A stretch of 39,171 nucleotides of DNA, taken from positions 1 to 39,171 of IMG/VR virus record IMGVR_UViG_3300043436_002351; one strand, 5' to 3'. The first letter of the stretch is position 1, and every line of letters starts with the position of its first letter. Position numbers and translations under genes: made by a program. This document shows positions 1 to 39,171 of this stretch, one piece after another. A model generated the notes under the pieces. It worked only from the letters and a program-made list of their open reading frames with translations, searched no databases and had not been told where the DNA came from. The DNA comes from a virus.

Positions 1-646
1 TGCCTATGCCGAAGCAAAGAATTTCGTGAAGAAACAATTCGGGTTAACCGAAGCGGAAATTAAAGAATTGGATTTCCAAGGCGTGCTTAAATTGGTGAAT
101 GACCGAGTAAGCGAAAAGTCGGGCAATAAAGATTTATTAGAGCAATTGAATCAAGCCAAGCAAACGATTATCGACTATGAAAATCGGGTAAAAGATTTTG
201 AGGAAACCGTTATTCCTTCTATCAAATCCGAATCCGAATCGGCAATTCGTTCGTTCAAAGTTAATCAGGCTATTCAAGCCGAGGTTAGCAAACATCCTTT
301 GATTGGTGCATCTCAGTATGTCGTACCCGGATTTACTCAGGATTTCAACAAGAAGTATAAAGTTGAAGTTGACGATTCAGGTACAGCAGTTGTTACCGAT
401 TTGAACGGTGCGAAGGTTTACGACAAGAACAAAAAAGAATTGACCTTGTCTGAATTGATTGTTATCGAGGGCAAAGAATCCAAGATATTCAAAGAATCGA
501 ACGGTGACCCACAACCACCGAAGCCGGGCAATGTAGCACCTGTTACCCCACAGCCTGCACCTGCTAAGAATCAAATCAGCAAGTGGCAACAGGAGTCAGC
601 ACAAAGGGTCGCTGAGATGAAACAGCGTGCTGGATTGAACGGATAA
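1..646 (+). CDS. Capsid scaffold-like protein, 5'-truncated by window edge
   Basis: The reading frame is open from the first bases, so this is the C-terminal 215 or so residues of the gene that is complete at 37546-38370. An apparent GTG start at base 26 is only an internal valine codon. Against the full copy the protein differs at five positions: one Ser/Asn change near the start and four in the Pro/Ala/Gln-rich linker near the C-terminus. The DNA differs at close to 40 sites, mostly third codon positions, so the protein is under purifying selection. The sequence is charged and predicted helical, with a likely coiled coil in the first third and a basic helical tail ending RAGLNG. Position directly before the major capsid gene is the main argument for a scaffold role; no protease signature was seen. 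Confidence 0.7.
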   Translation, partial: AYAEAKNFVKKQFGLTEAEIKELDFQGVLKLVNDRVSEKSGNKDLLEQLNQAKQTIIDYENRVKDFEETVIPSIKSESESAIRSFKVNQAIQAEVSKHPLIGASQYVVPGFTQDFNKKYKVEVDDSGTAVVTDLNGAKVYDKNKKELTLSELIVIEGKESKIFKESNGDPQPPKPGNVAPVTPQPAPAKNQISKWQQESAQRVAEMKQRAGLNG

Positions 647-671
647 ATTTTACTAATGCTCAAACACAACT

Positions 672-695
672 AACCCGGCTTATGTCGGGTTTTTT
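672..695 (+). terminator. Intrinsic terminator after scaffold-like gene
   Basis: AACCCG pairs with CGGGTT, extended by a G-T and a C-G pair around a short loop, and is followed by six T. It lies 25 bases after the scaffold-like stop codon. The right-end copy keeps the stem with one change in the loop. The T-run merges into the next promoter's -33 box. Confidence 0.8.
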
Positions 696-723
696 GTTTT
701 TATCGAAATTCTATTTATCTTTG
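693..723 (+). promoter_or_regulatory. Bacteroidota-type promoter of the capsid gene
   Basis: The -7 box TATCTTTG (716-723) matches TAnnTTTG. A TTTG -33 box lies at 693-696 with a 19-base spacer. The -33 box is made from the T-run of the preceding terminator. In the right-end copy the -7 box reads TACATTTG: only the two free positions changed. Confidence 0.8.
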
Positions 724-727
724 TATT

Positions 728-832
728 GTCTGATGCCAATCAGGCTTAGGTGGCGACCATCCGCATTAGGGTTATCCCCTCGAACCCACAACAGACGAGG
801 GATTTCAAACGCAAATAATAAACTTATTTATC
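728..832 (+). promoter_or_regulatory. Structured 5' leader of the capsid mRNA
   Basis: About 105 transcribed bases precede the capsid start codon. Three helices can be drawn: CTGATGC (730-736) with GCATTAG (763-769); inside it GGT (749-751) with ACC (756-758) around a GGCG loop; and CCCTCG (777-782) with CGAGGG (796-801). In the right-end copy the whole leader is identical except that the inner hairpin reads GGA and TCC, so a T-A pair became A-T. This is a compensatory change. The last 30 bases are unstructured and A/T-rich, as expected for a Bacteroidota translation start. Confidence 0.65.
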
Positions 833-1864
833 ATGTCATTTTCCGCAATTTGCCCGGCTATAAACGAGCAGTTACTAAATTTGGCTAATGAGCATACACC
901 TGCCATCAAATCAAGTCAGGTTGGAACTCTACGAGCCGTAAGCGACCAATACAATCGCTACAATGTGAACATCGTTCCATTGAATCGCCAGAATGGACAA
1001 ATCAAAACCGTTCAGGTAATGTATCAAAAGCGTTCAACAATCAACGAGGTAACATCCACGATTGATTCTTGCTTGAACGGTCCTTTCGATGAATCCGATA
1101 ACTTCGCAGAGAATGTTACAATCGGATTCCAAGCATCTCAGCAGTTCAAATACACTGAGGAGAGCATTCGTGAACTTTGCGAAGGTCGCAATTCTTGGGT
1201 GACTAAGGACATTGCTAATCGCCTTGATGCGATGCGTCAGTACATCAACAACGACATCATTACCGAGATGCTTGCAAACTCTGGTAATTATGCTGGTGGT
1301 ACTAACTCTGGAACATCCCCAATCGCATTGAATCTACTTGAGCCAATCGCAACAGGTGGTATCACCGTAGGTAACTACATTGGTGAGGCTACGATGTTGA
1401 ACACTTTGAGTGATGCTCGTGTATCAGGTCTTCCAATGGCTATCGGTAACGGTGACTTGCGTACCTATACCAAGATGCAGAAAATCGGATGCTGTAACAA
1501 CGGTGGTATCGATATGATGCAGGCTGGTCAGTTTGCATATTTCGAAGATGACCAATTGACAACAGCACTCGCAAACAACAACTTCTATGTATTAGAGGCT
1601 GGTGCATTGCAATTCATTCCAGTACCGTTCTACTTGGGCGAATACGAAACATTGACCGAAACAGAAACTCGTTCAACTATTGTTGACCCATTGATTCCGG
1701 GATTGGTTTATGACTTCAAAATCTACAAGCCACAAGGATGCGATGAGTGGAATGCTCAGTTGTCATTACACTACGCTATCACTGCACTTTACAACAACAA
1801 CTACCGTACAGGTGACCCGTTGTTGGGTGTGAATGGTATCTTCAAATTTAACGCTGCGACATAA
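833..1864 (+). CDS. Major capsid protein
   Basis: A 343-residue protein, a normal size for a phage major capsid subunit. It follows the scaffold-like gene and has its own terminator-promoter-leader unit, which fits the most abundant virion protein. I see no N-terminal delta-domain or cleavage site, and no protease gene is nearby, so a separate scaffold is likely. The partial second copy at 38559-39171 has about 22 base differences, all synonymous where I checked, showing strong constraint. The ATG is preceded by an A/T-rich stretch with no Shine-Dalgarno sequence. I did not recognise a named capsid family motif; the call is from position, size, expression signals and conservation. Confidence 0.8.
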   Translation: MSFSAICPAINEQLLNLANEHTPAIKSSQVGTLRAVSDQYNRYNVNIVPLNRQNGQIKTVQVMYQKRSTINEVTSTIDSCLNGPFDESDNFAENVTIGFQASQQFKYTEESIRELCEGRNSWVTKDIANRLDAMRQYINNDIITEMLANSGNYAGGTNSGTSPIALNLLEPIATGGITVGNYIGEATMLNTLSDARVSGLPMAIGNGDLRTYTKMQKIGCCNNGGIDMMQAGQFAYFEDDQLTTALANNNFYVLEAGALQFIPVPFYLGEYETLTETETRSTIVDPLIPGLVYDFKIYKPQGCDEWNAQLSLHYAITALYNNNYRTGDPLLGVNGIFKFNAAT

Positions 1865-10835: not shown

Positions 10836-11966
10836 TTATAGCGTTGCCATCCACTTCTTGATTATCTCGTCCTCTTTCTTGATTTTGTTCTTAAAAAGTA
10901 TCTGGTCTTTGCTGTAATTAAACTCATTATCTCTTGCCCAAGTTATATTTCCCTCCCAGTCGCAAAGTAGTATTCGCTTGACCATGTATTTACACGCTCC
11001 GACATCATCAGTATCGCCAAATCTACTCCATTGAAACCTGAACAATTTAGACAAGTCTGGATGAATGCTATTAAGTAAAAAGTCCTTGTATTCTTTCCAT
11101 GTTTTAAAGCGTTCAGGCAAAGTTTTAATCGAGTAAATCAAATCCTCTTTTGCATAAATCGAAGCCGTATGAACGCCTTGTAATCGCTCCTCAAGTTTGT
11201 TGTATGTATCTGGTTCAAGTTCCTGCAAATCGGTTAAACAACGGAATGCTTTTTCGTGAATCAAATTAGATACACGCAATGTACGCAGGTCGTGTCCCAG
11301 CATGTACATCTTGTCGTATATTCGATTGTACTTGAATCCTCCATCAATAAGATACTTCCAAATATCCTTGTACTTCCAGTCGATAATCGGATATGCCTTA
11401 TGCGGTTCGTTTATTCTTCTAAGCCAAAACATTTCCGAATCTTCACCAAATAAAACGAATCGTCTGTCTGGGCTTTCTTCTGCCCTCAAGCCAATAATAG
11501 ATACACTTTTGCCGGGTAATTTTCGCAAGTTCTGACCAACCCATAAATTAAACTTATGAAAGCGTTTCGGGTATTTGCCATCAATGTCGTGTATAGCAAC
11601 AGGGTTCTTATCTCTTACCCATTTTTCTTCATTACCCCACGCCCATAAAAACAACTGACTGGTACTGCAAGCATTAGTCATAAATATAGGCACTTGATAC
11701 CATAACGGTATAACATTAGGCTGGGTCATAACCCATTCGACAAGTTCTATCGTTGCTAAATACTCTGCCTCTTGGTCTTGAAAATAAACAATAAACTTTC
11801 GGTTACGCTTCTTTGCTTCTTCATTCAGCAGATGGAACAATACGGTGCTATCCTTGCCACCAGAGAATGATAGTTGAATATTGTCGTAGTTATCAAATAA
11901 GAATGCAATACGCTTGTGTGTTGCATTAAGTACATTATCAACGCCTCTTACTGCTGTGCGTGCCAT
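10836..11966 (-). CDS. PAPS reductase-like PP-loop protein (IbrA/DUF3440 type)
   Basis: A 376-residue protein. Residues 33-41 (SFSGGKDST) are the PP-loop of the adenine nucleotide alpha-hydrolase superfamily that includes PAPS reductase and the DndC sulfur-transfer protein. Further conserved features are VYFQDQEAEY near residue 60, IIGLRAEESPDR (about 158-169) and AYPIIDWKYKDIWKYL (about 192-207). Length and layout match the IbrA-like branch. The upstream ParB-like gene overlaps it by one base (TAATG), the usual partner arrangement. IbrA and IbrB were described as regulators of immunoglobulin-binding proteins in E. coli; the biochemical role in phages is not established. Confidence 0.85.
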   Translation of the reverse strand: MARTAVRGVDNVLNATHKRIAFLFDNYDNIQLSFSGGKDSTVLFHLLNEEAKKRNRKFIVYFQDQEAEYLATIELVEWVMTQPNVIPLWYQVPIFMTNACSTSQLFLWAWGNEEKWVRDKNPVAIHDIDGKYPKRFHKFNLWVGQNLRKLPGKSVSIIGLRAEESPDRRFVLFGEDSEMFWLRRINEPHKAYPIIDWKYKDIWKYLIDGGFKYNRIYDKMYMLGHDLRTLRVSNLIHEKAFRCLTDLQELEPDTYNKLEERLQGVHTASIYAKEDLIYSIKTLPERFKTWKEYKDFLLNSIHPDLSKLFRFQWSRFGDTDDVGACKYMVKRILLCDWEGNITWARDNEFNYSKDQILFKNKIKKEDEIIKKWMATL

Positions 11967-12499
11967 TATATTTCTTCCTGAATATCTTCTCCTGCTTCCA
12001 CTATTTGCCGTTCAATCGAATAAGGTACACCATGTATTTCTGATGCAATACCTTTGATGCCAATCAGTCGTTGAACCTCTTCCAAAGTCATCCCCAATTC
12101 TTTCATTATCTTTAACTCATCCCATCCAGATTTAAGCATACCAACGAGCGATGCTTGCAGTTCAACTTCGTGCTTTCCTCTTGCTCGATTGTGCCGGATT
12201 GTACTTGCCATCCGGTCATTTATATCTTTCTCAATTACCGATACCGGAAGCATGCCATTTTCACGCTCATAAATATCTTTTCTGGTCAGCATTATCGTAT
12301 ATCGATGGAAGCCATCAACGATAACATATTTATCCCTGTCAGCATCGTAAAAGCACACCACTGGCATAGTATAACCATCGCATTTGATTGACTGATACAA
12401 CAATTCCATCTCACGCTTTGCGACATGGTTTGGATTGTAATCATTTGCCTCGATTTTATCAATCGGTACGGCAATAACATTGTAAACTGGACTTTTCAT
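11966..12499 (-). CDS. ParB-like domain protein (IbrB type)
   Basis: A 177-residue protein with a ParB/Srx N-terminal domain: VPIDKIEANDYNPN (about 11-24), then VDGFHRYTIM (about 57-66), the G-x-x-R/H motif, and ASTIRHNRARGKHE (about 98-111). The C-terminal part is helical with an HTH-like stretch (DELKIMKELGMTLEEVQRLIGI). This domain binds nucleotides in related proteins. It lies between, and overlaps, the SNF2 helicase gene (four bases) and the PP-loop gene (one base), so all three are one translational unit. Confidence 0.85.
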   Translation of the reverse strand: MKSPVYNVIAVPIDKIEANDYNPNHVAKREMELLYQSIKCDGYTMPVVCFYDADRDKYVIVDGFHRYTIMLTRKDIYERENGMLPVSVIEKDINDRMASTIRHNRARGKHEVELQASLVGMLKSGWDELKIMKELGMTLEEVQRLIGIKGIASEIHGVPYSIERQIVEAGEDIQEEI

Positions 12500-13683
12500 A
12501 TTGTGTTTATTATCTCTTCAATTTTTACTGCTCTGAAATACTCATCCATACTCTGCTTCTTTTGGATATTGTCATTAACGAGAATATCAAGACCAGTGTT
12601 GCTATTCATGTCGTAATAAATACAATCATGATTCTGCCCTGTTCGATATGTACGCTGTTCGCTCTGCAATCGCTGAGCATAGTCAAAGGTCTTATCGAAA
12701 TAAATCGTGATGTGTTTATCCTGTAAGTTTAACCCAAACGAGTGCATGCCATACGACATAACCGATACTAACGGATATTTCTTTTGCAATGTTTCACGAC
12801 TTATAATATACTTGCAATATATCAAGACCTTGCTCTGGTCTAACTTAGCCAACAACGCATCCAACTTTTCCAACTTATTTTCCGATATGCAGTACAGGTG
12901 TTGCATCTTCTGGGTCATTTCGATGAAGATGTTGTTGTTCAGGAATTGAAGCGTTTCATTATCCAAATAGTGCGTTTTGAGATGCTGGTACTGCTCCATT
13001 TCTTCATCGCTAATCTTGTAATTGATATGATTATATTCTTTTTTGACTTGAATAAATAAATCAGATTCATAGACATACGGAGCAATTACGCTGTACAGGT
13101 AATCAATGTTCGTAAATTCGTGAATGACTTCTTTTGATACCTGTCTGCCCGATACCCATTTGGTTACTTTTGACCATTTGCAGAATGTATTCTTAAACTC
13201 GGCAAAATCCATCTTTAATATTTTCGGAGAAAGAAATTCCATCTGCGCCCAGATGTCCAGCAGGTTTTTGGATATTGGCGTGCCGTTCAGCACCAACTTA
13301 TACTTAGCATATTTACCTATCTCAATTATGCGTTGCGTCCTCTTGGCTGTGTTATTTTTGATTTTAAGCGATTCGTCTACGACAACGAAGCAATCGTGCG
13401 TCTGGACATAGTTAAATAGCCTTAAATACTCTCTATCGGATGAAGATAGCGTTTCAATTCCAATAACTTGACAATTTTTGACAAAACCAGATTTGGCAAG
13501 TTCGATACGCAGGTTGTCTTTTGTCCGAAATGGCGTGAACCAAATAACTTCGGGTACTTCGGTTGAGTTAATAAGCGTTACGGCTGTAAGTGTTTTGCCT
13601 GTGCCGGGACGCATGAATAACGCCCCGACTTTCAAGCAATTTAACTTCTCGACTGCCGACTGCTGGTCTGGCAGTAGATTCAT
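12496..13683 (-). CDS. SNF2-like DNA helicase/translocase
   Basis: A 395-residue superfamily 2 protein. Motif I is MRPGTGKT (24-31), motif II is VVDESLKIKN with DES in place of DEAH (about 101-110), motif III is LNGTPISKN (132-140), and motif VI is SEQRTYRTGQ (about 340). These are SNF2 hallmarks. It is compact, without extra DNA-recognition domains. It heads the helicase-ParB-PAPS cassette and probably moves along double-stranded DNA. The modified motif II is common among phage SNF2 proteins. Confidence 0.85.
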   Translation of the reverse strand: MNLLPDQQSAVEKLNCLKVGALFMRPGTGKTLTAVTLINSTEVPEVIWFTPFRTKDNLRIELAKSGFVKNCQVIGIETLSSSDREYLRLFNYVQTHDCFVVVDESLKIKNNTAKRTQRIIEIGKYAKYKLVLNGTPISKNLLDIWAQMEFLSPKILKMDFAEFKNTFCKWSKVTKWVSGRQVSKEVIHEFTNIDYLYSVIAPYVYESDLFIQVKKEYNHINYKISDEEMEQYQHLKTHYLDNETLQFLNNNIFIEMTQKMQHLYCISENKLEKLDALLAKLDQSKVLIYCKYIISRETLQKKYPLVSVMSYGMHSFGLNLQDKHITIYFDKTFDYAQRLQSEQRTYRTGQNHDCIYYDMNSNTGLDILVNDNIQKKQSMDEYFRAVKIEEIINTI

Positions 13684-14048
13684 TTTACAAGGTCTGAATC
13701 TGCTTCCATTTTATCAGCAACAAGCACTGGAGGATTGTTTTTTTCAACTATCACCTCGTTGTGTCCTGTGCCGTATGTGGTTTCTGTTTGTCCGGCTTTT
13801 TCTTCCATGTACTTAATTTCCTCAAGAACCTGCTCAATTACCCGTTGCTTTTCTTTCTGCAACCACTGATAAGGCTGGCTTGGGCAGTCAACAAATACCG
13901 ATACTTGTACTTTACCATCCTGAATGTAAATGTAGGTGGTGGTATTCATTTTCTTGGTTTTGTAACCGAATTGTGGAAGATAAACTCGGCTTTCTTTCCA
14001 TACTTTTGAGCCGAAGTAATTTGCGAGTGATTCGAGTGTGTGTGTCAT
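13680..14048 (-). CDS. Hypothetical protein before the SNF2 helicase
   Basis: A 122-residue protein with a beta-rich first half (TTTYIYIQDGKVQVSVFVD) and a charged helical segment (QWLQKEKQRVIEQVLEEIKY) followed by a polar tail. It overlaps the helicase gene by four bases and may be a subunit of that cassette; that is inference from coupling only. Confidence 0.6.
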   Translation of the reverse strand: MTHTLESLANYFGSKVWKESRVYLPQFGYKTKKMNTTTYIYIQDGKVQVSVFVDCPSQPYQWLQKEKQRVIEQVLEEIKYMEEKAGQTETTYGTGHNEVIVEKNNPPVLVADKMEADSDLVK

Positions 14049-16460: not shown

Positions 16461-16517
16461 TGTTTTAACGCACAATTTTCACAAAGGTTACAAAACTTTT
16501 AATTTATTTTTGCGTTA
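16461..16517. promoter_or_regulatory. Divergent promoter and operator region
   Basis: The rightward -7 box TATTTTTG is at 16505-16512. The leftward -7 box is AACCTTTG (16489-16482, one mismatch). The half-sites TAACGCA (16466-16472) and TGCGTTA (16511-16517) are perfect inverse copies that bracket both promoters, as at 10.8 kb, although the half-site sequence differs. A bound regulator could control both directions at once. Confidence 0.65.
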
Positions 16518-16618
16518 GATACAAAATACAGGCTGTGCAAGAGCCTAAACGATATTCCTTCATCGGATAAACTCAGGGTTGAATAGAATGCTTGCACCGT
16601 TCTGTTCAGCCCTTTTTT
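16518..16618 (+). ncRNA. Leader RNA with kissing-loop pair and terminator
   Basis: Starting near 16518, about 100 transcribed bases form three hairpins. Hairpin 1 is AGGCT (16530-16534), loop GTGCAAG, AGCCT (16542-16546). Hairpin 2 is CGAT/ATCG (16550-16565). Hairpin 3 has a 13-base stem (16576-16588 with 16600-16612), an 11-base loop and then six T, an intrinsic terminator. Loop 3 contains CTTGCAC (16591-16597), the exact reverse complement of loop 1. The next gene starts 15 bases after the T-run, so this is either an attenuator of the helicase-primase operon or a small RNA. Confidence 0.7.
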
Positions 16619-16632
16619 ATTGACTCAAAATT

Positions 16633-16818
16633 ATGTACTACTTAAAAATCAAAACAATCGATTCAGACCTGAAACTGGTCAAAGTTGGGATGTATGAAAC
16701 TGCAACCGACAAATGGATAAAATGGGTTAAGATTAACGATGTAACTATTGAAATACTTACATCTGGTTTAATTCACTTTGACCTTGTTGATGGCAAACCA
16801 ATTCTATGCAAACCTTAA
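16633..16818 (+). CDS. Hypothetical small protein, first rightward early gene
   Basis: A 61-residue mixed-charge, beta-rich protein (YYLKIKTIDSDLKLVKVG). It follows the leader RNA and overlaps the helicase start by 13 bases. No family recognised; a helicase accessory role is possible. Confidence 0.6.
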   Translation: MYYLKIKTIDSDLKLVKVGMYETATDKWIKWVKINDVTIEILTSGLIHFDLVDGKPILCKP

Positions 16819-18170
16819 GACCATACCAAATACAGGCAATCGACCTGCTCCGAACCAGCATAAAACGGCACAAACGCTCAATTCTATGCGTTCCGACTGG
16901 GGGCGGAAAGACTACGATAGTATCTGCAATGATAGCCAGTGCCATAAGTAAGGGTAAACGAATCCTATTTCTGGCACATAGGTCTGAACTATTAAGCCAA
17001 GCCACAGAAAGGCTAAAATCATTCGGGCTTAATCCGGGTTTGATTCAAGGTAAAAACAGCCGGGTTCATCCTTTCCTGAATGTCGCATCGGTTCAAACTC
17101 TAAGAAACCGAACCAATCGAATACTTCCTCCAGACATTATTTTTGTTGATGAGTGCCACCTTAGTATGGCAAACTCCTACCGAAAAATATTTGATGCATA
17201 TCCTAATGCTTTTGTCGTAGGTATGACAGCCACTCCAACACGACTGGATGGAAAGCCTCTTGGTGATGTTTATTCGGATATAGTCGCACCTATTTCAATT
17301 GACCTGTTAACTAATCAATCATTCCTTGTGCCAGTCAGAAAATTCGTGGCAAAAGAAAAGGTTGATTTATCAGGCGTTCACATGGTGGCAGGTGATTATA
17401 ATAGTGCTGAATTGTTCCAAAAATACGACAAAGCAAACCTTTACGCTGGCGTGGTTGATAATTATAATAAATTCGCCAATGGTCGGCAGTTTATAATATT
17501 TTGCGTAAATGTAGCCCACTCAAAAAAAACCGCAGAACTATTCAGGCAAAACGGAATATCCTGCGAGCATTTGGATGGGGAAAGCACTGAGCAGGAACGA
17601 AACGCCACTATTTCCAAATTTCGTGCAGAATTAATTCAAGGTATTTCAAATGTTGCTTTATTTACCGAGGGCTTTGATGTGCCTAATGTGTCCTGTGTCA
17701 TCCTAAACCGAGCAACCAAGAGTTTAGCCTTATATTTGCAAATGATAGGCAGGGGGCTAAGACCAAATCAAAATAAAACCGATTGTGTAATTCTTGACCA
17801 TGGAGATAATGTCGTAACTCATGGCTGGTATTCGCATGAACATGAATGGAGTTTGACAGGTAAAAAGAAAAAAAACAAACAAGATGCTTTTTCCGTTAGA
17901 CTATGCGACAACTGCGAAGCCATGATGCCAATCAATCAGAATATTTGCCCGAATTGCGGATACGCACGACCACAAAAAGAACGAACTCAAAATATTATAC
18001 AAGAAAGCGAAATGATTGAAATTACAAAAACACTAATCCCTCAGCACCTTAAAGGTAAACCATGGGGCAGAATGAATGAAGCCGAATTAAAAGAATTGGC
18101 TCAGATTAAAGGATATAAACCGGGATGGGTTTACAGGCAATTACAAATTCAGAGGGGTAAAAGAGCATGA
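16806..18170 (+). CDS. SF2 DEAD/DECH-box helicase with zinc ribbon
   Basis: A 454-residue superfamily 2 helicase. Motif I is PTGGGKT (30-36), motif II is DECH (114-117), motif III is TATPTR (140-145), and motif VI QMIGRGLRP is near residue 315. These place it with the RadD-like/UvsW-like group. A zinc ribbon follows (CDNCEAMMPINQNICPNCGY, about 370-390) and then a helical C-terminal module (GRMNEAELKELAQIKGYKPG) found in RadD-like proteins. It probably remodels branched or replicating DNA. Four-base overlap with the primase gene. Confidence 0.88.
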   Translation: MQTLRPYQIQAIDLLRTSIKRHKRSILCVPTGGGKTTIVSAMIASAISKGKRILFLAHRSELLSQATERLKSFGLNPGLIQGKNSRVHPFLNVASVQTLRNRTNRILPPDIIFVDECHLSMANSYRKIFDAYPNAFVVGMTATPTRLDGKPLGDVYSDIVAPISIDLLTNQSFLVPVRKFVAKEKVDLSGVHMVAGDYNSAELFQKYDKANLYAGVVDNYNKFANGRQFIIFCVNVAHSKKTAELFRQNGISCEHLDGESTEQERNATISKFRAELIQGISNVALFTEGFDVPNVSCVILNRATKSLALYLQMIGRGLRPNQNKTDCVILDHGDNVVTHGWYSHEHEWSLTGKKKKNKQDAFSVRLCDNCEAMMPINQNICPNCGYARPQKERTQNIIQESEMIEITKTLIPQHLKGKPWGRMNEAELKELAQIKGYKPGWVYRQLQIQRGKRA

Positions 18171-20326
18171 CAATTAGCCTATACAAAAATGTGTCCGATG
18201 TACGCTCAAAGGACACCACTACGATTGACGCTTTCATATCAGATATTCGTTCAGGTAGATGGGAAAAGCAAGTTCTAAAAATTCGGGAAAGCCAAGACCC
18301 AGAACAAAAGAAACTACTTCCACTTGTTACATGCTCAGGTCATTTCAGTGAGCGTAACCGGAAAAGCCTGATATCCCATTCCGGATTCATTTGCATTGAT
18401 ATTGATAACCTAAATTCAGACGAACTAACATCAACCGCTCAGCAACTTTGGAATGACCAGTACACCTATGCCTGCTTTCGTTCAGTTCGTGGAAATGGTC
18501 TGGCTGTACTCGTTAAGATTGACCCAGCACAACATGAGGCACTATTTGAAGGACTTGAATATTATTACGCTAAAACATATCAGGTAAGTATTGACCGTTC
18601 GTGCAGGGATGTAAGTCGAGCCAGATTTGTTTCGTTTGACCCGGGTATTTATCACAATCCAAAATCAGCCCTATTCAAAAAAACCGTACCGAAAAAAGAC
18701 CAGCCAAAAAACCTGCCTCACGCCGTACTGCCAGACAATGACTTAAGCGAAATATTCAATCAAATTGAATCACGCCGTATCGATTTAACTCAAGGAGATT
18801 ATAACAGATACCTTCGTATTGGTTTTTCCTTGGCTGAATACAAACAAGAGGCTGGAAGGGCTTACTTCCATACTGTTTGCCAATACTCGGAAAAATATGA
18901 CCATTCAAAATGCGATAAGCAATATACCAACTGCCTAAAAAGTACAGGCAACGGCGTAAATATTGGAACATTCTTATTCTATTGTCAACAGGCTGGAATA
19001 AATATTAGAAGCGAAAAAACAAAACTCGCTATTCAAACGGCAAAAATGGGTAAAAAAACCCAGACAAAAGAAAGCCTTGTTTATACAATTACAAACCTGC
19101 ATGGTCTTGAACAAAATCACGCTCAGCAAGTGGTTGAACAAGTTTTGTCAGAATCAGACCAATCGGGTTCAGGCGAAAAGGAAAATATTATAGTCGTAGT
19201 AGAAGCGTTTGTAAATGCAAACTATAAATTAGTTCGGAATACCGTAACTAATCGCTTGGAGAATAACGGTGAAGTCTTTACAGATGCCGACCAAAATAGC
19301 CTATTTATTAAACTAAAACGAACATATCCAAAGGCTTCAATGGAGGTGATTGACCGTTACCTTAACTCAAATGAACTGACCCAATATAATCCTCTTATTT
19401 CATTTTTGGAGGCAAACGAACACAGACGCCCGTATGGAGTAATTGCAAAAATGGCAGACACTATTAAAGGGTATAACGGACACATGGACACTGGGGATGT
19501 GATGCATAATTATGTGGAATTTTTTCTAACCAAATTCTACCTCGGATTAATCGGTTCGGCTTTGGGTGATGAAGTGCCTCCAATCATTCCAATTATTTAC
19601 GGAACGAAAATGGGAACTGGAAAGACTGAATTTTGGAAACGACTTTTGCCAAAGGAACTTAATAAATACTTTGCAATCAGCGACCTTTCAAATGGTCAAG
19701 ATGATGACATTCTAATGAGTATGAAATGGCTTGTATGCGACGATGAATGGGGCGGTAAAATGGCAACCAATACAAAACTACTTAAGGCTAAATCCAGTCA
19801 GTCAAACACAACTATGCGGAGAGCATACGGACGCAACCATGAGGATATTAAACGCCTTGCCATGCTTTGTGGCACTTCAAATGATTCGGACATCATAAGC
19901 GATTCCAGCAACAGGCGTATTGTGCCGATTAACGCCACCGATATTGACTTGGAAACATACTACTCAATTGACAAAACGGACGCACTAATCGAAGCCTATC
20001 ACCTTTACACAAGTGATGGTCAGACTGGATTTTTATCAAAGGAGGAAAATAAAATACTTCAATCAGTCAGTTTGCAAAATACCAGCCCAGATGTTCATGC
20101 AGAACTTTTAACGAGTAAATTTCATCCGGGAGAACCAAACGAGCCTGAATGTATTACAATGACTGCCTCCGAAATTGCATCGATTATTCAGCAAAAAACA
20201 CAACTCAAAATTACCGCCGTTGGTATCGGTCGGGTACTTTCAAGACTTGAATACCCATTTACAATGGAAAGGCAAGCAGGGCTTAGCCCAAAAAAGGTTT
20301 ATTTTGTGCGACCAGTTTCGCTATAA
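18167..20326 (+). CDS. Primase-helicase (BT4734 N-terminal + VirE-like ATPase)
   Basis: A 719-residue fusion. Residues 50-170 match the BT4734 N-terminal domain common in Bacteroidota mobile elements: FICIDIDN (DID at 78-80) and SVRGNGLAVLVKI (106-118), which are primase active-site features. Residues 200-290 resemble a PriCT-type linker (RIGFSLAEY). Residues 440-620 are a VirE-family P-loop ATPase with YGTKMGTGKT (about 477-486), a DDEWGG Walker B region and a conserved TSNDSDIISDSSNRR sensor segment. It should prime and unwind at the origin; the origin candidate lies 350 bases downstream. Confidence 0.88.
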   Translation: MTISLYKNVSDVRSKDTTTIDAFISDIRSGRWEKQVLKIRESQDPEQKKLLPLVTCSGHFSERNRKSLISHSGFICIDIDNLNSDELTSTAQQLWNDQYTYACFRSVRGNGLAVLVKIDPAQHEALFEGLEYYYAKTYQVSIDRSCRDVSRARFVSFDPGIYHNPKSALFKKTVPKKDQPKNLPHAVLPDNDLSEIFNQIESRRIDLTQGDYNRYLRIGFSLAEYKQEAGRAYFHTVCQYSEKYDHSKCDKQYTNCLKSTGNGVNIGTFLFYCQQAGINIRSEKTKLAIQTAKMGKKTQTKESLVYTITNLHGLEQNHAQQVVEQVLSESDQSGSGEKENIIVVVEAFVNANYKLVRNTVTNRLENNGEVFTDADQNSLFIKLKRTYPKASMEVIDRYLNSNELTQYNPLISFLEANEHRRPYGVIAKMADTIKGYNGHMDTGDVMHNYVEFFLTKFYLGLIGSALGDEVPPIIPIIYGTKMGTGKTEFWKRLLPKELNKYFAISDLSNGQDDDILMSMKWLVCDDEWGGKMATNTKLLKAKSSQSNTTMRRAYGRNHEDIKRLAMLCGTSNDSDIISDSSNRRIVPINATDIDLETYYSIDKTDALIEAYHLYTSDGQTGFLSKEENKILQSVSLQNTSPDVHAELLTSKFHPGEPNEPECITMTASEIASIIQQKTQLKITAVGIGRVLSRLEYPFTMERQAGLSPKKVYFVRPVSL

Positions 20327-37545: not shown

Positions 37546-38370
37546 ATGAGTAAAGCAATCGAATTTTTAAAAACTATTGGCGTTCCTGAGGATGTAGTTA
37601 CATCAATCGAAACCGCCAATGAGGAAACAGACCTTTCCAGTCTTGTGGACTTGACCGAAAACCATTTTACGAACTATTATAAAGAGCGTGTCAAGGATGA
37701 AATACACAAGGCTGGAAAGGGTTCTGCCTATGCCGAAGCAAAGAATTTCGTGAAGAAGCAATTCGGGTTAACCGAAGCGGAAATTAAAGAACTTGATTTC
37801 CAAGGTGTGCTTAAATTGGTTAATGACCGAGTAAACGAAAAGTCAGGAAATAAAGATTTATTGGAGCAATTGAACCAAGCCAAGCAAACGATTATCGATT
37901 ATGAAAATCGGGTAAAAGATTTTGAAGAAACCGTTATTCCTTCAATCAAATCTGAATCCGAATCGGCTATTCGTTCGTTCAAAGTTAATCAGGCTATTCA
38001 AGCCGAAGTTAGCAAACATCCTTTGATTGGTGCAAGTCAATATGTCGTACCCGGATTTACTCAGGATTTCAACAAAAAGTATAAAGTTGAAGTTGACGAT
38101 TCAGGAACGGCAGTTGTTACCGATTTGAACGGAGCAAAAGTTTACGATAAGAATAAAAAAGAATTGACCTTGTCTGAACTGATTGTTATCGAGGGCAAAG
38201 AATCCAAGATATTCAAAGAATCGAACGGTGATGCACAGCCACCGAAGCAGGGCAATGTAGCACCTGCTACCCCACCGCCTGCACCTGCTAAGAATCAAAT
38301 CAGCAAGTGGCAACAGGAATCCGCACAAAGAGTGGCTGAGATGAAACAGCGTGCTGGATTGAACGGATAA
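37546..38370 (+). CDS. Capsid scaffold-like protein (complete copy)
   Basis: A 274-residue protein. It is helical and charged, with a coiled coil around residues 75-140 (SGNKDLLEQLNQAKQTIIDY, ENRVKDFEETV), a small beta region (KKYKVEVDDSGTAVVTDLNG) and a Pro/Ala linker before a basic helix at the C-terminus. Acidic N-terminus with a basic C-terminal helix is the usual layout of scaffolds that grip the capsid protein with their end. It immediately precedes the capsid gene. The N-terminal 60 residues are seen only in this copy. Confidence 0.7.
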   Translation: MSKAIEFLKTIGVPEDVVTSIETANEETDLSSLVDLTENHFTNYYKERVKDEIHKAGKGSAYAEAKNFVKKQFGLTEAEIKELDFQGVLKLVNDRVNEKSGNKDLLEQLNQAKQTIIDYENRVKDFEETVIPSIKSESESAIRSFKVNQAIQAEVSKHPLIGASQYVVPGFTQDFNKKYKVEVDDSGTAVVTDLNGAKVYDKNKKELTLSELIVIEGKESKIFKESNGDAQPPKQGNVAPATPPPAPAKNQISKWQQESAQRVAEMKQRAGLNG

Positions 38371-38396
38371 AATATTACTAATGCTCAAACACAACT

Positions 38397-38420
38397 AACC
38401 CGGCTAATGTCGGGTTTTTT
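38397..38420 (+). terminator. Intrinsic terminator after scaffold-like gene (right copy)
   Basis: AACCCG pairs with CGGGTT, loop changed by one base relative to the left copy, then six T in total from the stem end. Confidence 0.8.
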
Positions 38421-38449
38421 GTTTTTTATCGAAATTATATTTACATTTG
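38418..38449 (+). promoter_or_regulatory. Capsid promoter (right copy)
   Basis: TTTG (38418-38421), 20-base spacer, TACATTTG (38442-38449). Compared with the left copy, the spacer has one extra T and only the two free positions of the -7 box differ. The structured leader follows at 38454-38558 with the compensatory pair at 38477 and 38482. Confidence 0.78.
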
Positions 38450-38558
38450 TATTGTCTGATGCCAATCAGGCTTAGGAGGCGTCCATCCGCATTAGGGTTA
38501 TCCCCTCGAACCCACAACAGACGAGGGATTTCAAACGCAAATAATAAACTTATTTATC

Positions 38559-39171
38559 ATGTCATTTTCCGCAATTTGCCCGGCTATAAACGAGCAGTTA
38601 CTAAATTTGGCTAATGAGCATACACCTGCAATCAAATCAAGTCAGGTAGGTACGCTTAGAGCCGTTAGCGACCAATACAATCGCTACAATGTGAACATCG
38701 TTCCATTGAATCGCCAGAATGGTCAAATCAAAACCGTTCAGGTGATGTACCAAAAGCGTTCAACAATCAACGAGGTAACATCCACGATTGATTCTTGCTT
38801 GAACGGTCCTTTTGATGAATCTGATAACTTCGCAGAGAATGTTACAATCGGATTTCAAGCATCTCAGCAGTTCAAATACACCGAGGAGAGCATTCGTGAA
38901 CTTTGCGAAGGTCGCAATTCTTGGGTAACCAAAGACATTGCCAATCGCCTTGATGCGATGCGTCAATACATCAACAACGACATCATTACCGAGATGCTTG
39001 CAAACTCTGGTAATTACGCTGGTGGTACTAACTCCGGAACATCTCCAATCGCATTGAATCTACTTGAGCCAATCGCAACAGGTGGTATCACCGTAGGTAA
39101 CTACATTGGTGAGGCTACGATGTTGAACACTTTGAGTGATGCTCGTGTATCAGGTCTTCCAATGGCTATCG
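38559..39171 (+). CDS. Major capsid protein, 3'-truncated by window edge
   Basis: First 204 codons of the capsid gene, same start context as at 833. The frame is open to the last base. All differences from the complete copy that I checked are synonymous, so the protein is identical over this part. Confidence 0.85.
   Translation, partial: MSFSAICPAINEQLLNLANEHTPAIKSSQVGTLRAVSDQYNRYNVNIVPLNRQNGQIKTVQVMYQKRSTINEVTSTIDSCLNGPFDESDNFAENVTIGFQASQQFKYTEESIRELCEGRNSWVTKDIANRLDAMRQYINNDIITEMLANSGNYAGGTNSGTSPIALNLLEPIATGGITVGNYIGEATMLNTLSDARVSGLPMAI

Follow-up and report, generated by a model that had tools for sequence, protein, structure and literature searches.

What might a leader RNA do whose first hairpin and terminator carry mutually complementary loops, when it stands directly in front of phage replication genes? 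The leader in question lies at about 16505-16632 on the + strand of a 39,171-base virus record (the window, by which we mean the whole stretch of DNA analysed), between two divergent operons. Behind a TAnnTTTG box, which we take to be a -7 element of the Bacteroidota type, come a first hairpin (HP1), a weak mini-hairpin (HP2) and a predicted intrinsic terminator (HP3), that is, a stable hairpin with a T run directly 3′ of it (Table 1). Each 7-base loop is the exact reverse complement of the other, with every loop base used. Sequence and fold thus confirm the two hairpins with 7/7 complementary loops that a preliminary description of this DNA had reported, though its 13-base terminator stem is in fact 16 bp long (13 Watson-Crick and three G.U pairs). 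The terminator does stand shortly before the first gene, as stated there, but the first ATG follows the T run after 14 bases rather than 15. Folding of the 181-nt leader stretch beats all 200 of its shuffled versions (z = -4.19). HP2 reads UUUCC/GGAAA or UUUGAC/GUCAAA in related leaders, as judged by eye and with no formal count, and free folding of the corresponding region of the window favours a different small hairpin.

Table 1. Leader elements and downstream genes in the window
Feature	Position	Strand	Basis
-7 box TATTTTTG (TAnnTTTG)	16505..16512	+	sequence match to Bacteroidota-type consensus
Hairpin 1 (HP1), stem 16530-16534/16542-16546 (AGGCT/AGCCT)	16530..16546	+	sequence, fold
Kissing strand 1, the HP1 loop GUGCAAG, pairs with 16591-16597	16535..16541	+	7/7 complement, covariation
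HP2, weak mini-hairpin UCC/GGA between HP1 and terminator	16556..16567	+	by eye
Predicted terminator hairpin (HP3), stem 16575-16590/16598-16613, T run 16613-16618	16575..16618	+	sequence, fold, stem covariation
Kissing strand 2, the terminator loop CUUGCAC, pairs with 16535-16541	16591..16597	+	7/7 complement, covariation
First ORF past the terminator, 61 aa, ATG 16633	16633..16818	+	without PHROG or Pfam match
DNA helicase of the replication operon	16806..18170	+	PHROG 16, E 5e-102
DNA primase of the replication operon	18167..20326	+	PHROG 15962, E 9e-96

A scan of both strands of the window for two hairpins whose 7-base loops are complementary, plus a T run, returned this place alone, and the same scan applied to 200 Markov-shuffled windows gave 31 matches, or about 0.16 per window. 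Starting from helicase and divergent-gene searches among viral contigs, we collected 17 distinct leaders on 26 contigs, the window included. The contigs comprise 20 that match a C-type terminator pattern and six of the A type; the distinct leaders divide into 13 C-type and four A-type. Loop pairs encountered in this way include GGGCAAG x CUUGCCC (L005), GUGGAAG x CUUCCAC (L027 and L031), CUGGCAG x CUGCCAG (L057) and GUGAGAG x CUCUCAC (L058), with GUCAGAG x CUCUGAC (L069) found by DNA pattern. The C-type pattern is blind to the loops, as it specifies the base of the terminator alone, leaves the loops free and demands nothing upstream; nevertheless, all 20 of its contigs, several of them already known, have an exact 7- or 8-base loop complement upstream. 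Likewise, an A-type pattern with a free HP1 loop found five stretches, each with a partner loop. A pattern of the -7 region plus HP1, loop free, found eight stretches, seven of which carry the element; the eighth (L071) is an HP1-like hairpin with neither partner nor terminator, ahead of an HTH-like gene, and was set aside as belonging to another context.

A scanner for hairpins with paired loops added L026, L028, L033 and an eighteenth leader, L023. This last leader (1485-1605) shows a -7 box, a hairpin, a small hairpin, a terminator with T run, a 132-aa ORF and a primase gene, in that order, yet has no evident sequence relation to the others and was missed by the leader model R1. Its architecture suggests that the design extends beyond this phage group. 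The scanner recovers 14 of the 17 distinct leaders, missing L005, L063 and L082, and its empty results are accordingly weak. Among nine pieces of long contigs, seven held exactly one element, as does the window; in the remaining cases the known leader of G006 was missed and that of G008 lay outside the piece scanned.

Searches further afield returned little. Most loci from the divergent-gene search have no leader right beside that gene, another gene intervening. No leader was visible by eye near distant helicases of 26-37% identity (L008-L016 and L059-L062), and the scanner found none in L008-L017 and L059-L062 save for one match in L061, whose AU-rich loop we attribute to chance, as we do a poly-T match in L073 lying away from the leader of that locus. 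The leader DNA of the window matched none of the named phages, and that of L090 none of the named phages and plasmids. Of six named Flavobacterium, Cellulophaga and Nonlabens phages that have a related helicase or primase, five gave scanner matches with a T run; none had a -7 box within 80 nt, and we took these matches as chance. Model R1 found nothing at E 1e-4 in 395 genomes of the phylum of G011, a search that A-like leaders would escape, since R1 gives A-type leaders only 22-25 bits; one weak match in G011 itself has an E of 0.6.

The relatives allow the loop-loop contact to be judged by covariation. Among the 18 leaders there are ten loop pairs, nine in the main group and the tenth in L023, all of them 7/7 Watson-Crick, with position 6 of loop 1 an A in all ten. 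Alignments A1 and A2 mix leader types with HP1 loops of 7 and 8 bases, and pair counts were therefore taken from the 13 C-type rows only (alignment A3). There, 91 of 91 cells of the kissing helix are paired, and five of its seven pairs show changes in both partners and no pair in just one. Its covariation is 0.553, compared with 0.107 ± 0.042 in shuffles that do not preserve the relatedness of the leaders and of which none in 500 reaches the observed value; sliding the helix by 1-3 columns yields at most 0.168. A rough leader tree, made from 77 columns with those of the loops left out, implies at least 13 double substitutions and eight changes of loop type in the kissing helix. The stems behave similarly: the HP1 stem is paired in 65 of 65 cells, with two of five pairs changed on both sides, and the terminator stem, which also covaries, in 220 of 221. 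Counted apart, the four A-type terminator stems include two T.T mismatches in L063 and one A.C in L005. Loop-to-loop spacing is 56-59 nt in all 17 leaders and 68 nt in L023.

The contact between the loops is almost certainly real, since relatives that differ in one loop differ in the other to match. None of the 18 distinct leaders has one loop changed without the other, the pattern that the preliminary description had set as its refuting test, and its proposal of a kissing complex gains strong support from the covariation. The stems contain 33 G.U cells and one A.C, which indicates that the constraint acts on the + strand RNA; in the kissing helix G.U pairs are absent. At the level of sequence, then, covariation establishes the loop-loop pairing and both stems, with strand and position established as well.

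The genes behind the leader point to its setting. PHROG matches bear out both genes of the helicase-primase operon that had been proposed for the window, and in all eight operons scanned past the first ORF, replication genes follow the leader. These are helicase and primase in the window and L092, primase in L023, and DnaB in L080, L087, L090, L093 and L099, where a small ORF stands ahead that in some (L090, L099) encodes an initiator-like or primosomal protein. In L086, where the first ORF alone was scanned, no family was found, and L079 has no ORF of at least 55 aa listed behind the leader. Because the genes differ, the leader appears tied to replication genes but not to one kind of them. 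The same leader stands ahead of two different helicase genes in L057 (2394-2489) and L075 (7127-7222), a sign that it is exchanged as a module. L023 and 15 of the 17 distinct leaders have a TAnnTTTG box at most 60 nt ahead of loop 1, against a rate of about 0.05 boxes per 60 nt across the window; the two without it, L080 and L087, have GATATTTG instead. At the other end, all 17 leaders have their first ATG 3-17 nt beyond the matched terminator stretch, though in L087 the gene starts at a later ATG, 17 nt on. Judging from this -7 consensus and from helicase and primase relatives that occur in Flavobacterium, Cellulophaga and Nonlabens phages, among others, the uncultivated carrier phages probably come from Bacteroidota hosts.

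Several further features of these loci caught our attention. On the - strand of the window, a promoter-like TTG ... TAATTTTG site (16657-16626) faces leftward into the terminator; its -7 part is missing from 16 of the 17 distinct leaders. Several C-type leaders show by eye an extra inverted repeat (e.g. TCCTGA...TCAGGA) between the -7 region and HP1, near 8040-8065 in L090 and also in L079, L082, L086 and L080, perhaps a fourth hairpin or an operator. The two ends of the window (1-1445 and 37725-39171) are 1.4-kb copies of one another at 95.2% identity, from which the genome is probably near complete, though terminal repeats that differ by 5% are unusual for a single phage. A phosphoadenosine phosphosulfate reductase-like gene lies beside a ParB-like gene on the - strand (10836-12499), perhaps as a DNA-modification pair. 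Finally, one of the 56 ORFs of the window has an HTH_3 domain (Pfam) and might encode a repressor; a scanned set of ten window ORFs did not include it.

With confidence a little past even, we read the leader as a cis-acting transcription attenuator of the phage replication operon, in which the kiss sets read-through. Transcription would start about 0-30 nt before HP1, as placed from the -7 box, and HP1 would fold first. As soon as the apex of the terminator hairpin had emerged from the polymerase, the terminator loop would form 7 bp with the loop of HP1, and the terminator stem would then close beneath the kissing helix. Part of the polymerases would halt at the T run and release an RNA of about 100 nt, while the remainder would continue into the helicase, primase or DnaB genes. 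Since the kiss is the sole contact between upstream RNA and terminator found in all leaders, it most likely sets the share of polymerases that read through. We infer termination, read-through and a shift of their ratio by the kiss; the kiss and the terminator stem are mutually compatible, and the kiss need not affect termination. We would guess, with little confidence, that the cis contact promotes read-through and that, as phage copies rise, released leaders with the same loop type accumulate and compete for it. Such competition would make the leader a copy-dependent brake on the replication genes.

Stacked on the 5-bp and 17-bp stems, the kissing helix would span about 81 Å, while the 27-nt linker, drawn taut, reaches 168 Å, or about 96 Å with HP2 formed. 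These figures are arithmetic from lengths per base, and by comparison of the two the contact is possible within one molecule. When the 3′ arm of the terminator is left out, the predicted folds of 16 of 17 leaders bring loop 1 and the terminator loop together as an ordinary helix with HP1 open, the program being pseudoknot-free and thus unable to display a kiss; one of the 16, L005, pairs at five of seven positions, and L063 is the exception. These folds also pair 4-11 nt of the terminator 5′ arm with upstream sequence in all leaders but L087 (0 nt), 16 of 17 in total, at places that vary from leader to leader. From these folds, the contact can precede the termination decision, and it may be either a kiss or a refolding antiterminator with HP1 open. 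Covariation of the HP1 stem means that HP1 matters at some stage.

The main rival to this cis attenuator, which we favour over it, is attenuation in trans: the terminated leader would be an immunity or copy-control RNA that pairs with the nascent leader of another copy and causes termination there, with loop type as specificity in the manner of P4 CI RNA or P1/P7 C4 RNA. We regard this as doubtful overall, yet as carrying appreciable weight. Each leader holds a loop and its exact complement, hence any two copies of the same type can pair, and the nine loop types of the phage group, with the tenth in L023, would be so many specificities. The close pair L056/L057 has changed at 3/8 and 2/8 loop positions, 8/16 positions of the upper terminator stem and 2/10 of the HP1 stem, set against 1/26 in the linker and 0/20 in the lower stem. 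There is also precedent, in that P4 CI RNA is described as pairing with segments of the leader that carries it and so stopping replication genes from being transcribed (PMC4825925), and the C4 specificities of P1 and P7 as separated by 4 nt (PMC5320573). Against this, an intramolecular contact should win at ordinary RNA concentrations, and the nearly constant loop spacing is what cis geometry would need. Diversifying selection on the loops, which we considered, finds no footing, as mean pairwise differences are 0.317 and 0.322 in the loops against 0.353 in the linker, so that the loops are overall no more variable than the linker; another pair, L076/L079, differs in the linker too (6/25). Moreover, lysogenic immunity would have no evident user, the HTH_3 domain notwithstanding, because no integrase family occurs among the 25 of 27 Pfam families listed for the 56 window ORFs, or in the 29 ORFs of G001 (Pfam, all 17 families listed).

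Other readings make less of termination or of RNA altogether. An improbable one is a structural or protein-binding RNA, in which the kiss builds a fold for a phage factor, host factor or ligand and the terminator is merely the 3′ end. In its favour, both leader types retain HP2 and the linker in part, and the kissing hairpins of the guanidine-II riboswitch are regarded as forming its ligand site (PMC7357161); however, the loops here vary provided they pair, which fits poorly with a pocket built from loops, and no Rfam family matched. The two or three hairpins straight after an early promoter also recall a put-like RNA, which would modify RNA polymerase so that it passes terminators processively, a variant raised in the preliminary description. 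We find it unsupported and think it very unlikely: the last hairpin here is itself a predicted terminator with a T run, whereas putRNA consists of two stem-loops without one, and the leader loops are variable. Scarcely more credible, and if anything less so, is a DNA element such as origin hairpins or two operator half-sites, to which inverted repeats beside replication genes, in the window between divergent operons, would lend themselves. The 33 G.U cells pair solely in + strand RNA, set against the single A.C, and the elements are framed by a -7 box ahead (15/17) and a T run and ATG behind, with stems that covary. As for chance complementarity, which the background rate in shuffled windows might invite, its probability is negligible: conservation in relatives removes it as an explanation, in line with the earlier judgement that chance was unlikely, given 20 of 20 contigs in the loop-blind scan and ten loop types.

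Kissing loops are already known from antisense control and from riboswitches. What appears new is a terminator bound through its own loop to a hairpin further upstream in the transcript, by a loop pair that occurs in ten versions; nothing alike was found in the literature searched, which lies outside most subscription journals. The leaders would offer a natural series in which to study the effect of nascent-RNA tertiary contacts on intrinsic termination, and a collection of naturally occurring loop pairs that differ in specificity; for this uncultivated phage group they would also be a point of control by RNA. A bolder and rather unlikely proposal is that they represent an undescribed RNA family in which the leader is its own antisense, its loops pairing in cis and, between copies, in trans. 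If true, an RNA would count phage genomes, and loop type would set compatibility groups among co-infecting phages.

Comparison with known systems places the leader near several of them. Against the 4227 families of Rfam, the leader of the window had no match at gathering score or at E up to 1, the sole weak match in the window (13674-13746, E 0.22) lying away from it, and 14 related loci had none at gathering score. For C4 in particular, there was no match in the window up to E 1 and none in the 14 related loci at gathering score. The attenuator of plasmid pT181 likewise precedes a replication gene. By its published description, its leader too combines a 5′ hairpin that acts as a sensor with kissing loops and an intrinsic terminator, with the difference that a separate antisense RNA kisses the 5′ hairpin, where here the terminator loop is the partner (PMC4878617). 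The pT181 antiterminator, moreover, blocks the terminator arm by default (PMC4878617), while arm pairing here is weak and non-uniform in folds lacking the terminator 3′ arm. Looked for as the start of such an antisense RNA, a TAnnTTTG box on the opposite strand within 40 nt past the terminator was present in one of 17 leaders, a count of this promoter type at this place only.

Among phage systems, the CI RNA of P4 with its seqA and seqC comes close by description, the only basis on which we liken it: complementary segments lie on one leader before phage replication genes, and pairing decides premature termination (PMC4825925). In P4, a processed trans RNA meets separate target sites, whereas here both segments are hairpin loops and one of them is the terminator's own. 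The C4 RNA of P1 and P7 is similarly a short phage RNA with specificity loops, in which changes of a few nucleotides shift specificity, but it is reported to be cut out by RNase P, to have three stem-loops and to act partly by covering ribosome-binding sites (PMC5320573). HK022 putRNA resembles the leader as a hairpin RNA straight after an early phage promoter; it differs in binding RNA polymerase with two stem-loops and no terminator, and a word search of the main text of its structure paper gives 0 occurrences of 'kissing' and 'pseudoknot' (PMC9378689). The guanidine-II riboswitch and phi29 pRNA offer two kissing hairpin loops, within or between molecules, though the former uses fixed ACGR loops with a ligand and the latter four-base contacts for a packaging motor, and neither set is described as terminator loops (PMC7357161). 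As far as these accounts go, P4 CI RNA, C4, pT181, putRNA and the riboswitch and pRNA each share part of the design of this leader, and none shares all of it.
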